Part shown: positions 13,091 through 18,669 of the stretch, piece after piece
Layout: each line of letters opens with the position of its first letter
Numbering within the stretch: position 1 is the stretch's first letter
Assembly (NCBI GenBank): GCA_903881545.1
Contig: CAIRTQ010000119.1
Span: forward strand, 1 to 43,454
Origin: an uncultured Elusimicrobia bacterium
Lineage (GTDB): Bacteria > Elusimicrobiota > Elusimicrobia > UBA1565 > UBA9628
Length of the DNA stretch: 43,454 nucleotides
Reading direction: 5' to 3'
Position numbers and translations under genes: made by a program
Notes under the pieces: generated by a model
What the model saw: the letters and a program-made list of their open reading frames with translations, nothing else
The model's database searches: none
What the model was told of the DNA's origin: nothing

Positions 13091-14341
13091 ATGGACCGTT
13101 TCCTTATCGACGGCGCCCATCCCCTGCGCGGCGTCCTGCGCCTGAGCGGCTCCAAGAACGCCGCCCTGCCCATCCTTTTAGCCACGCTTTTGACCGACGA
13201 GCCCTGCGTCATCGAGAACGTCCCCACCCGGCTGCGCGACATCCGCTTCACTTTTCGCGTCTTGGAAGCCGTCGGGAAGCGCGTGGAAGTCTTGGGCAGC
13301 CGCGTACGTGTCCACGCGAATAAGCCCCTCAAGACCCGCGCTCCCTACGAGCTCGTCAAGCAGATGCGCGCTTCGGTCCTTGTGGCCGGCCCCCTGCTCG
13401 CCCGTTTCGGCTGGGTCCGCGTCCCCATACCAGGCGGCTGCGCCATCGGCTTGCGTCCCATAGACATCCACCTGCAAGCTTTTGAGGATCTCGGCGCCCG
13501 CCGCACCTTGGATCAGGGCGACATCATCCTTGATTCTCCTTTGCGGGCGGGGCCCGTCCGTCTTAAGTTCCCCAGCGTGGGCGCCACCGAGAATCTTATG
13601 ATGGCCGCTGCCGCATTGCCCGGCGTCACCACCATCCGCAATGCCGCGCGCGAGCCGGAGATCGAGGACCTCGCGCGTTGCTTGATCGGCATGGGAGCCC
13701 GGGTGAGCGGGGCGGGGTCCGCGACCGTGGTGGTGCGCGGCTGCCGGACCCTGCGCGGTGTCGTTCACAGCGTCATCCCGGACCGGATCGAGGCCGGCAC
13801 CTTCATGCTCGCAGCCGCGGCCACGCAGGGCAGCCTGAGGTTGCTAGACGCCCAGCCCGCGCACCTCAAAGCCGTCACGGCGGCCCTGCGGCGCGCCGGC
13901 GCCGTGGTGCGCGAGGGCAAGGGTGACATCCTGGTTTCCATGAAAGGCCGGCCCCGGCCCGTCTCGCTTTCGACGTCTCCCTACCCGGGCTTTCCCACCG
14001 ACCTTCAGGCGCCGTGGCTGGCTTGGATGTGCCTGGCGCGCGGCCGTAGCCGGGTCCGGGAGACCGTGTTCGAGAACCGCTTCCTGCACGCAGCCGAGCT
14101 TGGGCGCATGGGCGGCCGAGTCGCGGTCTCGGCAGACACGGCCGTAGTCGAGGGGGTGCCCGCTCTTTCTGGCGCGCCCATCATGGCTTCGGATATCCGA
14201 GCGGGGGCCGCGCTCGTCGTGGCGGCCCTGGCGGCGCGGGGGCGCAGCATCATCCAGCGCGTCTACCACATCGACCGCGGCTACGAGCGGGTGGAGGCCA
14301 AGCTGAGGTCCGTCGGCGCGCGCATTAGGCGCGTTAAGTGA
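13091..14341 (+). CDS. murA: UDP-N-acetylglucosamine 1-carboxyvinyltransferase
   Basis: First committed step of peptidoglycan precursor synthesis: adds enolpyruvate from PEP to UDP-GlcNAc in the cytoplasm. Lys22 in SGSKNAALP and the reactive Cys117 in PGGCAIGLRPID match the catalytic residues of the EPSP-synthase-like fold. The late motif YHIDRGYERVEAKL holds the conserved Arg. Cys117 is the residue attacked by fosfomycin in sensitive enzymes. Length 416 is normal. It has its own TATAAT and probably leads an operon with folC, whose start overlaps its stop. Confidence 0.96.
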   Translation: MDRFLIDGAHPLRGVLRLSGSKNAALPILLATLLTDEPCVIENVPTRLRDIRFTFRVLEAVGKRVEVLGSRVRVHANKPLKTRAPYELVKQMRASVLVAGPLLARFGWVRVPIPGGCAIGLRPIDIHLQAFEDLGARRTLDQGDIILDSPLRAGPVRLKFPSVGATENLMMAAAALPGVTTIRNAAREPEIEDLARCLIGMGARVSGAGSATVVVRGCRTLRGVVHSVIPDRIEAGTFMLAAAATQGSLRLLDAQPAHLKAVTAALRRAGAVVREGKGDILVSMKGRPRPVSLSTSPYPGFPTDLQAPWLAWMCLARGRSRVRETVFENRFLHAAELGRMGGRVAVSADTAVVEGVPALSGAPIMASDIRAGAALVVAALAARGRSIIQRVYHIDRGYERVEAKLRSVGARIRRVK

Positions 14342-15612
14342 TGACCTATCGGGCCGCGCTGGATGCCCTGGCCGAGCGCCAGGAGCACCGGATGCGCTTT
14401 GGCCTGGCGCGCTTGCGCCGCGTCTTGCGGCGGCTGGGCGACCCGCACCGGGCCGTGCCTTGCCTGCATACTGCGGGCACCAACGGCAAGGGTTCAACCT
14501 GCGCCATTCTGGAATCGGTCCTGCGCGCCGCGGGCTACCGCACCGGGCTCTACCTCTCCCCGCACGTCGAGTGTCTCCGCGAGCGCATCCAAGTCCGCGG
14601 CCGGCCCATCTCGGAGCCCCTGTTTGCCCGGCTTTTGGGCCGGGTCATCGCCGCGGATTCGGACCGCGAACTCACCTATTTCGAGCTGCTCACCTGCGCC
14701 GCCTTCCTGCATTTCCGGGAGCAGGCGGTGCAGGTCGCGGTGCTGGAGACGGGACTGGGCGGCCGTCTCGATGCGACCAATGTGGTGCCCAGACCATTGG
14801 CATGCGTCATCACCTCGATATCTTTTGATCATATGCAATGGCTGGGCGCCACGCTGCGTTCCATAGCGTCCGAGAAGGCCGGTATCATCAAGCCCCGGGT
14901 CCCGGTCTTCTGCCCGCGCCTGCCTGTCGAGGCCATGGACGTCCTGGCGGCCAAGGCCCGGTCGGCCGATGCTCCATTGACAGCGGTGCGGCGGTCTTGG
15001 AAGACCATTTCCGTGGATTGGCGGCGCAACCGGCAGGTCGTCGCCGACGGCCCCAGGCAATACGAGCTTTCGCTTTTGGGCGCGCGGCAAGGCCGCAACG
15101 CGGCTTTGGCCAAGGCGGTCTTGGACCGGGTGCTGCCCGTCGGAGAAGACGCCTGGCGCGAGGGACTGCGGCGGGTGCGCCTGCCCGGCCGTTGCGAGGT
15201 GATATCCCGAGGCGGCAAGACCGCGGTAGTTGATGGCGCGCACAATCTGGAGGCCATGGGCGAATTGGCGAGCGCCTTGGAGAGTTGGCCGGGGGGGCGT
15301 GGACGCGTGCGCTGGATCGTCGGCCTCATGAAGGACAAGGACAAGGTCGCCATTGTCAGGCGCCTGGCCCCGTTGCTTGCAGATGTGGTTGCGACCTCTC
15401 CGCGCCATCCCCGGGCGCTGGCGGCCGACGTGCTGGCGCGCGAACTGCGCCTTCAGGCGCCGTGGTCTACGGTTCGGGTCGAGGCCGACACCGGCAAGGC
15501 GTTGCGCGGCTGGCTGCGCGATCCGGCGGCGCCCCGGGTGGCGGTCATTTGCGGTTCCTTCTATCTGGCGGGCGAGGCTCTCCGGGCGCTCAGGAGAGGT
15601 AGACATTCCTAA
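14341..15612 (+). CDS. folC: Folylpolyglutamate synthase / dihydrofolate synthase
   Basis: Adds glutamate to (dihydro)folate or dihydropteroate with ATP. The P-loop HTAGTNGKGS is at about residues 43-52, followed by GLYLSPHVECLRERIQV and the Mur-ligase-family block VLETGLGGRLDATNVV. SFDHMQWLGATLRSIASEKAGIIK is the folate/Mg region, and VDGAHNLEAM the C-terminal domain start. About 423 residues, normal. ATG 14341 shares its A with the murA stop; a GTG at 14338 is an alternative start one codon earlier. The end overlaps the start of the ROK gene by 8 bases. A G7 run at 15291-15297 is in frame. Confidence 0.95.
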   Translation: MTYRAALDALAERQEHRMRFGLARLRRVLRRLGDPHRAVPCLHTAGTNGKGSTCAILESVLRAAGYRTGLYLSPHVECLRERIQVRGRPISEPLFARLLGRVIAADSDRELTYFELLTCAAFLHFREQAVQVAVLETGLGGRLDATNVVPRPLACVITSISFDHMQWLGATLRSIASEKAGIIKPRVPVFCPRLPVEAMDVLAAKARSADAPLTAVRRSWKTISVDWRRNRQVVADGPRQYELSLLGARQGRNAALAKAVLDRVLPVGEDAWREGLRRVRLPGRCEVISRGGKTAVVDGAHNLEAMGELASALESWPGGRGRVRWIVGLMKDKDKVAIVRRLAPLLADVVATSPRHPRALAADVLARELRLQAPWSTVRVEADTGKALRGWLRDPAAPRVAVICGSFYLAGEALRALRRGRHS

Positions 15613-16567
15613 AATCTCTTTCGGCGTCGACGCGGGGGGGACTTGCTTCAAGGCGGCTGCGGTCTCTGCCGATGGTTCCATCCTGCGCCTCGAGGAAGCG
15701 CCCACGGATGCCGGTGCCGGCCCTGCCGTTTTTGTCAACCGCGTCGCGGGCCTGCTCCAGGGCTGGCGCCGCCAGGGCCTCAAGGCGGACTCTTTTGGGT
15801 TCGCCGTGGCCGGTGACGTGGATAGTGGCGCCGGGCGCTTGCGCATGGCGCCTAATCTGCCGCTTTGGCAGGGCTATCCTTTCCGCGACGCCTTCCGCCG
15901 CCGTCTGGGGCTGGCCACAGTCATGGAGAACGATGCCAACGCCGCGGTCTGGGGCGTTTACGCCGTCGAACTCAAGCGCCGCCCACGCAGTCTCATTGGC
16001 GTCACCTTGGGCACCGGCGTGGGCGGCGGCCTAGTGATGGACGGCCGGCTCCAACGCGGGGTGACTGGAAGCGCGGGCGAGATCGGGCATACCCAGGTGG
16101 CTTTTCCTGGGGAACCATGCTCTTGCGGATCGCGCGGCTGTCTGGAGGCCTATGCCGGCACGCGTGCCATCCTGCGTGCGGCGCGGCGGCTCTTGCGCGC
16201 ACGACCGCGGGCGGGCCGCGTCCTGCGCGGCCTTTGCCCTGACCCCAAGGATTTGACCCCCAAGGTCCTCAAGATCGCCGCAGACCGAGGCGACCGCATC
16301 GCCCGCGAGGTTTGGGAGCGCGCCGGCGCCGCGTTGGCAATCGGACTCACTAATGCAGTCTTGCTGACCAACCCCGAGGCGTTGGTTCTTATGGGCGGCG
16401 TGTCCCGGGCTGGGCATTGGATTCTGGACCCCATACGCAGGGTTTTTCGCAGCCGGCCCTACGGCACCGCTCTGCGCGCGGTCTCCCTGCGCTGCGCGGC
16501 AGACCCTAACTGCGGCTGCGTGGGCGCGGCTCTGCTGGCCTGGGAGGAGCGTTCCTGCCGTCGCTGA
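15605..16567 (+). CDS. ROK-family sugar kinase, probable ATT start
   Basis: Cytoplasmic ATP-dependent sugar kinase of the ROK family (glucokinase-like). It begins almost at once with the phosphate loop GVDAGGTCFK (7-16). Catalytic Asp110 is in ENDANAAVWG, GTGVGGG follows at 137-142, the ExGH motif gives His162, and the zinc motif PCSCGSRGCLE supplies Cys172, 174 and 179. No ATG, GTG or TTG lies in frame for some 200 bases upstream of this point. A strong AGGAGAGG (15593-15600) sits just before an in-frame ATT at 15605, which is the best start (320 residues). The substrate is not readable from sequence; glucose or another hexose is plausible. Confidence 0.88.
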   Translation: MPKISFGVDAGGTCFKAAAVSADGSILRLEEAPTDAGAGPAVFVNRVAGLLQGWRRQGLKADSFGFAVAGDVDSGAGRLRMAPNLPLWQGYPFRDAFRRRLGLATVMENDANAAVWGVYAVELKRRPRSLIGVTLGTGVGGGLVMDGRLQRGVTGSAGEIGHTQVAFPGEPCSCGSRGCLEAYAGTRAILRAARRLLRARPRAGRVLRGLCPDPKDLTPKVLKIAADRGDRIAREVWERAGAALAIGLTNAVLLTNPEALVLMGGVSRAGHWILDPIRRVFRSRPYGTALRAVSLRCAADPNCGCVGAALLAWEERSCRR

Positions 16568-18669
16568 TATTCCTACCGTTGCTGTTATGGGTATCCGCCG
16601 TCGTCCAGGCGGCTCCCGGGACCCCGGTTTCGAGCGCTGCGGCCTCGGGCTATGAACTGCCGGCCGCGCCCACAGAGGATCACGTCGAATTCATGGCGGA
16701 CCACCTCGACTATGACCGCAGCCTCGACCTCGTGCATCTTCAGGGAGCGGCGCTCGTCAAGGATTCCACCTGGACTATCAAGGGCGACGAGCTTGGGCTC
16801 GACCTGCGCCGGCGCCTGGTCCGGTCCCCGGGTTTTGTCATCATTTCGGACAGCGCCAGCGCCGCTTCCGGCGCCTCGGGCGAGTTCGATCTGGCCGGCC
16901 ACTCGGGCCGGCTGGATCGCGCCTCGGCCGGCCATGGCGAATGGCGTGTGCATGCCCGGAGCATGACCGTCAACGCGAAGCGCCGCCTCCATTATGCGGA
17001 TGCGGATTTTACCAGCTGTAGCTATGATCCCAAGCCCCACTATTACTTTCACGCCGGCAGCATGGATGTCGTGCCGGATCAGTACCTCTTCGCGCGTAAC
17101 GTGGTCTTCGTGCTGGGCAGGCTGCCGCTGTTCTATACGCCCCTTCTCTACAAGTCTCTCAACCAGACGCATTCCATGATCTTCAGAGTCCAGCCGGGAT
17201 ACGACCGCCGCAACGGAGGCTTCTTAAAGACCGCTTTGGAGCTCCAGAATTCGCGCACCTGGCGCAGCAAGCTGTTCTTCGACTACTATTCGACGGAAGG
17301 GGTCGGGCTCGGCGCCGAGGTGAGCCACCGTGCCGGCAAGGATTCCCGGGGCATCCTCTCCGGCTATGAAATCAAGGAGGCCAAGGGCGGAGCCGAGCGC
17401 TGGTTCGTCAGCGGGGACCTCTACCAGGCATTCGCCAGCTCCTTCTCTGCCCAAGTCCGCCTGCAGACCATGTCTGACCCCAACTTCAACAACGACTACT
17501 CGCGCGCCAGCCCGTTTCCTATCACATCCTACCTCCTCAACAACAGTGCTTTGGTCTACCACCTGCCCCAGTGGACGACCCGTCTGAGCTATGCCCGCCT
17601 GGACAACGCGCTGGGCGTCTCCTCCTTCACCAAAGCCACGGAGGACCTGCCCCGCCTGGATGTGCAGTCGGCCCAGCTCAGGATCGGGAAACTGCCCTGG
17701 CTCAACACCCTCACCGGCTTCGCCGACAGCAATTATGATTCCAGCCGCGGCTACCAGCAGAAGTCTCTCGGCGGCAGTTGGGAGGCCACGCAATCATACA
17801 CCATCTCCCGCCATTTTAAATTCATGCCGCGGTTGCGCTACAGCGAGACCTTCTACGACCGGTATACGGACACCGTGGGCGTCACCTCGACCACCTTGAC
17901 CGATGTGGGAGTGGGCCGCTACCTGGGCGCCGGAACCCTGCGCGTGCGCACGCCCATGGGGGACACCGACTTGACCGAGACCTACAGCCGGCGCCTGAAG
18001 GCGGATTCCTTCGTCGACGACACGGCCGCGGTCGACCACGGCGTGGAGAGCAACCTCATGACGGTGCAGCACGCCTACCGGCCGGGGCGCGCCGTGCTCG
18101 TGCGCGTCAACTCCGGCTACGATTTCAGGGTCTACCGCAACCAGACCCTGGGCTGGCGTAACCGCGTACAGCCTATCGTCAGCGAGGTGTATTACACGCC
18201 CCACTCTCAGTTCAGCCTGATCCTGCGCGACGACTACAGGATCGCCGGCGGCAATGAGAATCTGGTCGTCAATGGCACCTGGGGTGACGAGCGCAAGACC
18301 TTTCTGAGCGCGGGCGCGGGCTACAATATCAGCAATTCCAACCGCTACTTCATCAACGCCGAGGCCGGTTGGCTGGTGCCGACGATTCATCTGCGTTTGA
18401 CCGGAGCCCTGCGCTCCATGGTTTTAAGCAATGGCGGTTTAGGAAACATGCACGGGGGACAGCTCTTTGACAAGGAATTGATGATCTTCAAGGAGTGGCA
18501 CGACTTCGCGGGACGGTTCGGCTGCCGTTTTCGTCCCGGCGATGTGAAGGAAGCCACGGTGCGCGTGGATATAAAGTTGGGCAGCTTCGAGGCTAACCGC
18601 CAGAAGGCCCACGATTGGGAGTCGGAATGGTTCCCGGAGCGCGCCTACGGAAAGGAAGACCGGCCCTAG
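16555..18669 (+). CDS. lptD: LptD/OstA-like outer-membrane LPS assembly protein
   Basis: Outer-membrane beta-barrel that inserts lipopolysaccharide into the outer leaflet. A signal peptide precedes an OstA-type jelly-roll region (about 35-150: VEFMADHLDYDRSLDLVHLQ, WTIKGDELGLDL, FTSCSYDPKPHYYF) and then a long aromatic-rich barrel with alternating strands to the C terminus. About 700 residues is usual. The standard reading starts at TTG 16579. However, GGGAGGAG at 16542-16549 is spaced seven bases from CTG 16555, which gives a better signal peptide (PSLIFLPLLLWVSAVVQA). The gene overlaps the ROK end if CTG is used. The LptD Cys pairs of Escherichia coli are not evident. LptD subfamily call is firm, exact substrate less so. 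Confidence 0.85.
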   Translation: MPSLIFLPLLLWVSAVVQAAPGTPVSSAAASGYELPAAPTEDHVEFMADHLDYDRSLDLVHLQGAALVKDSTWTIKGDELGLDLRRRLVRSPGFVIISDSASAASGASGEFDLAGHSGRLDRASAGHGEWRVHARSMTVNAKRRLHYADADFTSCSYDPKPHYYFHAGSMDVVPDQYLFARNVVFVLGRLPLFYTPLLYKSLNQTHSMIFRVQPGYDRRNGGFLKTALELQNSRTWRSKLFFDYYSTEGVGLGAEVSHRAGKDSRGILSGYEIKEAKGGAERWFVSGDLYQAFASSFSAQVRLQTMSDPNFNNDYSRASPFPITSYLLNNSALVYHLPQWTTRLSYARLDNALGVSSFTKATEDLPRLDVQSAQLRIGKLPWLNTLTGFADSNYDSSRGYQQKSLGGSWEATQSYTISRHFKFMPRLRYSETFYDRYTDTVGVTSTTLTDVGVGRYLGAGTLRVRTPMGDTDLTETYSRRLKADSFVDDTAAVDHGVESNLMTVQHAYRPGRAVLVRVNSGYDFRVYRNQTLGWRNRVQPIVSEVYYTPHSQFSLILRDDYRIAGGNENLVVNGTWGDERKTFLSAGAGYNISNSNRYFINAEAGWLVPTIHLRLTGALRSMVLSNGGLGNMHGGQLFDKELMIFKEWHDFAGRFGCRFRPGDVKEATVRVDIKLGSFEANRQKAHDWESEWFPERAYGKEDRP

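Follow-up and report, generated by a model that had tools for sequence, protein, structure and literature searches.

Results

The window analyzed here, i.e., the whole stretch of 43,454 nucleotides, is contig C119 of the draft genome of an uncultured Elusimicrobia bacterium (GCA_903881545.1, contig CAIRTQ010000119.1), which comprises 2.94 Mb in 158 contigs and is 93% complete. Four genes follow each other on its forward strand between positions 13091 and 18669: murA (13091–14341), folC coding for folylpolyglutamate/dihydrofolate synthase (14341–15612; TIGR01499, 341.6 bits at a cut-off of 162.65), a ROK-family sugar kinase gene coding for 320 residues (15605–16567; PF00480, 193.2 bits at a cut-off of 22.9) and an lptD-like gene, the frame of which extends from 16564 to 18669 (PF04453, 24.0 bits at a cut-off of 22.4). 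The folC gene starts with ATG 14341, which adjoins GTG 14338 and is aligned with ATG in five relatives of the same genus, and ends with the stop codon TAA at 15610–15612. The murA, folC, ROK kinase and lptD-like frames are adjacent in same-genus relatives as well, and this conserved neighbourhood may hint at an envelope-related role of the kinase.

The translation of the kinase gene contains the motifs DAGGT, EIGH and CSCGSRGC, which we take to be ROK signatures, and hence both the DxGGT loop and the CxCGxxGC motif. Assignment to the ROK glucokinase subfamily was not obtained, since the score for TIGR00744 of 192 bits was below the cut-off of 260.35, and no NCBIfam cut-off for any specific ROK kinase was reached. 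The best match of solved structure was the glucokinase 3vgk, and the top solved relatives were glucokinases and N-acetylmannosamine kinases. The two closest named relatives of the kinase among the contigs searched stem from Elusimicrobia metagenome genomes (L032 with 70% and L037 with 72% identity). These two of 80 loci were inspected for the start; judged by their length, they are the same contigs as L005 and L004 and, being no independent sequences, were not counted in the comparisons below.

The kinase gene lies in an open frame from 15332 to 16567 that is preceded by the stop codon TGA 15329. In a first-pass annotation, ATT 15605 (15605–15607) had been proposed as its probable start codon because the glycine loop of the kinase starts within seven residues of it, a Shine-Dalgarno-like sequence lies just before it and ATG, GTG and TTG are absent in frame for about 200 bases upstream. 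All three observations were reproduced: with ATT 15605 taken as codon 1, the loop motif GVDAGGT starts at residue 7, the Shine-Dalgarno-like sequence AGGAGAGG is located at 15592–15599, five bases before ATT, and the nearest upstream canonical codon is TTG 15389, 216 bases away inside folC, followed further upstream by ATG 15383, TTG 15377 and TTG 15353. The nearest canonical codon downstream is GTG 15806, i.e., codon 68, which lies beyond the phosphate-binding loop; a start at this residue would remove the loop. ATC 15614 (codon 4) was rejected, as it lies 14 bases past the Shine-Dalgarno match and is aligned with no start in the genus. ATT 15605 is in frame, and no canonical start is able to give the conserved N-terminus; translation from it would yield the N-terminus (M)PKISFGVDAGGT..., with proline as residue 2. 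The ROK start and the folC stop overlap by eight bases, ATTCCTAA, at 15605–15612 of the forward strand.

The start position was compared among relatives. Of 57 genomes searched with the protein, 52 gave a match, the own genome being one of them, which leaves 51 relatives; loci were fetched for 29 of these and 28 were parsed (L014 from G012 was unparsable), while the other 22 relatives lie outside the comparison. A canonical start (ATG, GTG or TTG) was present 8–16 codons before the aspartate of DxGGT in all 28 parsed relatives. Five orthologues from the same genus were fetched; their alignment with the window is gapless from start to loop, and the codon aligned with ATT 15605 is ATG in G002, G003, G005 and G006 and GTG in G004; the sixth same-genus genome, G001 (79% complete), provided only a match of 31% identity and was not counted. 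The inspection of close homologues suggested by the first-pass annotation therefore supports ATT 15605 as start position, since ATG or GTG occupies exactly this site in 5/5 orthologues and none of them has its ATG at a different site. By contrast, the accompanying remark that such starts often have a regulatory role found no support here, because the non-canonical codon is not kept among close relatives: ATT occurs in none of the five orthologues.

The comparison also bears on translation from further upstream, i.e., from TTG 15389, ATG 15383, TTG 15377 or TTG 15353, by which 72–84 residues encoded inside folC would be added to the kinase. The frame is indeed open there, the mechanical list of open reading frames has it start at TTG 15353, and in 12 of the 28 relatives the frame is likewise open for at least 80 codons upstream of the aspartate. 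However, an in-frame stop codon within 80 codons blocks such an extension in the remaining 16 relatives, with just 12 open codons between the upstream stop and the aspartate in G004, and the match to Pfam ROK does not set in before residue 6 of the protein translated from ATT. We consider an upstream start extremely improbable.

The overlap of eight bases between the folC stop and the ROK start, an arrangement as looked for in translational coupling, is present in all six same-genus members examined, own genome included, and reads ATGCCTAA in G002, ATGTCTAG in G006, GTGCCTAA in G004 and ATGCCTGA in G005 and G003. Base 15607 is the difference between ATT and the codon of the four ATG relatives, and it is at the same time the first base of the last FolC codon, which is TCC (Ser) in the window, whereas four relatives have GCC (Ala) and the fifth has GTC (Val).

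The lengths of the encoded proteins are close to those of the relatives, namely 416 residues as compared to 417–419 for MurA, 423 as compared to 405–432 for FolC and 320 as compared to 316–322 for the ROK kinase. Nei-Gojobori dN/dS values for the kinase gene were 0.24–0.30 in the five pairs of the window with a same-genus relative and 0.20–0.46 in the other ten pairs, and the FastTree branch length of the window was 0.30 for ROK, 0.36 for folC and 0.16 for murA. The kinase gene is intact and a sign of decay is absent. This is of importance for the possibility that the start has been lost and that the ROK gene is silent or becoming a pseudogene in this species. Replacement of ATG by ATT can lower translation severely, as described for rsbW of Listeria monocytogenes (PMC13068326), but the full-length frame, its dN/dS and its unremarkable branch speak against such a loss, which we regard as very unlikely, with the reservation that a very recent loss would stay invisible to these measures.

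A serious rival is an error of assembly or base calling, or a minority strain variant, in which case the organism would truly have ATG at 15605. According to a survey of 36 prokaryote genome triplets, a switch to AUU was recorded for 1 in 61,358 ancestral AUG starts and for 1 in 5,080 ancestral GUG starts (PMC5622118). Such switches do occur, which speaks for the ATT start, but their rarity makes a base error in the draft the main competitor. Moreover, of the six same-genus members compared, the window is the only one to deviate, and a single base in a single draft genome of 158 contigs is decisive. On the other hand, murA, folC and ROK are full-length and align with the relatives, so that gross errors are not seen here, and it is unlikely that a random error would hit precisely this base, though the finding was chosen for its oddness. 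Weighing both sides, we judge an error or a strain variant to be unlikely, while taking it more seriously than either a lost start or an upstream start.

To evaluate the Shine-Dalgarno sequence, the 16S tail of same-genus G002 (L160), GGATCACCTCCTTT, served as anti-Shine-Dalgarno sequence, the own draft being without a 16S match. The best duplex upstream of ATT was modest at -8.0 kcal/mol, as compared to -10.5 to -11.9 kcal/mol in the five relatives, and the poor codon is thus not compensated by a stronger match. The best 8-base duplex amounted to -7.4 kcal/mol; when 400 random 20-base stretches were drawn from positions 13100–18600 of the window, 8% of them attained this value. The sequence lies at a workable distance from ATT, but the match by itself is not decisive as evidence for the ATT start. 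No repressive RNA structure beyond that of shuffled sequences was found at the start in the window (z 0.05), and the region is not unusually open. Among the six same-genus sequences, the ROK start region of G005 (L006, 1468–1527) folds far better than its shuffles (z -3.13), which is not the case for the other five.

The lptD-like gene downstream probably starts with CTG 16564, as suggested by the codons aligned in the relatives; this codon overlaps the ROK stop TGA in the tetranucleotide CTGA (16564–16567), and GGGAGGAG at 16542–16549 is a possible Shine-Dalgarno sequence for it. Other candidate starts are CTG 16555 and TTG 16579, the latter five codons on. In 20 of the 29 parsed ROK loci, own locus included, an open frame of about 500 codons, truncated where the locus ends, has a four-base overlap with the ROK stop, and nine loci are without it. 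The codon at this junction is ATG in four, GTG in four, TTG in seven and CTG in four loci (own, G002, G006 and G013), which together make up 19 of the 20; the twentieth, G003, has ATA, followed by ATG in TAATG. The frames of G002 and G006 lack a canonical start both upstream in frame and in the 25 codons that follow, and that of G013 has none within 25 codons downstream and only distant ones, at least 81 codons away, upstream. When five of the lptD-like frames were tested with Pfam, those of the own genome, G002, G006 and G004 passed the LptD or LptD_N cut-off and that of G013 failed.

NTGA has been described as clearly more common than any other spacing motif between adjacent genes (PMC12548453). 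A survey of about 577 kb from six same-genus genomes, for which a home-made coding score was used and in which the window's own lptD junction was not retained, yielded 34 NTGA junctions with ATG in 15, GTG in eight, CTG in seven and TTG in four. A canonical codon follows within 14 codons downstream in five of the seven CTG cases, and only the lptD cases of G002 and G006 have none within 25 codons. CUG is given as 0.024% of bacterial initiation codons with a yield of 0.86% of that of AUG (PMC11497404). No paper containing both 'lptD' and 'CTG start codon' was found in one open-access library, which is not proof of absence.

Initiation factor IF3 represses non-canonical starts, as stated in the available text of PMC5472188, and infC was not found in the own draft, nor in the less complete same-genus genomes G001, G003 and G006, but G002, G004 and G005 do carry it. 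In G002, the IF3 match is directly followed by an rpmI-like frame, called by eye, and then by rplT. On contig C54 (L137) of the own genome, the rpmI-like frame starts 67 bases from the contig end with rplT behind it, and the 66 bases before it (L137: 1–66) showed, by eye, no resemblance to the C-terminus of IF3. As the expected position of infC is at a contig end, its absence from the draft is probably a gap, and loss of IF3 was rejected as cause of the ATT start.

Discussion

Here, the ROK kinase gene of an uncultured Elusimicrobia bacterium was found with ATT at the position at which its same-genus orthologues carry ATG or GTG. We consider it likely that ATT 15605 is the start of an intact kinase gene, that it is derived from an ancestral ATG or GTG and that it supports low-yield AUU initiation, the latter being the likely reading in view of a protein that displays no decay. 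Following this, we propose that the ancestral start, ATG or else GTG, changed to ATT in this lineage, most simply by one G-to-T substitution at 15607, which would also have altered the last residue of FolC. The ordinary fMet initiator tRNA probably initiates on AUU, with AGGAGAGG setting the position, and ribosomes that finish folC at its stop codon may help initiation of the kinase across the overlap. The expected result would be less kinase than with ATG, since little protein was made from AUU starts in the measurements found, such as those on rsbW; the yield may be partly rescued by the ribosomes arriving from folC. As to this last step, overexpression of IF3 also lowers re-initiation in Escherichia coli according to the accessible text of PMC2268962, which argues against assuming that re-initiation escapes IF3.

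The ATT start of the ROK gene is new as an instance, AUU starts as such being already known. For E. coli pcnB, the title of a study reportedly states that the AUU start limits expression; this start was shown by experiment, whereas that of the ROK gene is deduced here from sequence comparison. The case of L. monocytogenes rsbW is similar in that ATG was turned into ATT by one base within a gene overlap (17 bp between rsbW and rsbV) with a changed residue in the upstream protein, and expression followed the order ATG > ATA > ATT; in contrast to these mutants of a regulator gene, which arose in a selection experiment, the case described here concerns a natural assembled sequence, a putative sugar kinase and no known selection (PMC13068326, available part). 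The AUU start is likewise shared with E. coli infC, but the latter encodes IF3 and its start is embedded in a feedback loop, (PMC5472188), whereas nothing of this kind comes with a kinase as such. Staphylococcus aureus cvfC1 also combines an AUU start with a Shine-Dalgarno motif; there, the motif is described as very strong and extended, and motif and non-canonical codon are conserved among staphylococci (PMC13009471, available part), unlike in the ROK gene with its modest match and with ATT in one genome only. A case of an ATT start in Elusimicrobia was not found among the titles listed from one open-access library (10 of 2,721 papers in one search), which does not prove absence.

In the folC-ROK-lptD row, each of the two genes behind folC begins at an overlap with the preceding stop, and each may have drifted to a non-canonical start, namely ROK to ATT in this species and the lptD-like gene to CTG in this species, in G002 and G006 of the same genus and in G013 of another genus of the same family. 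Re-initiating ribosomes may tolerate poor codons at such overlaps, by which selection on the start codon would be relaxed; we put this forward as a tentative and rather doubtful idea.

The ATT start alone changes nothing in the understanding of translation; if no sequencing error lies behind it, it is a real though minor peculiarity of a known kind. It allows a clear comparison in which a start codon changes from ATG or GTG to ATT at a fixed position, and a start predictor that accepts no codons other than ATG, GTG and TTG would err here by adding 72–84 spurious residues. Taken together with the CTG of the lptD-like gene, the ATT of the ROK gene offers a small testable case on the question whether overlaps of stop and start relax the choice of start codon.
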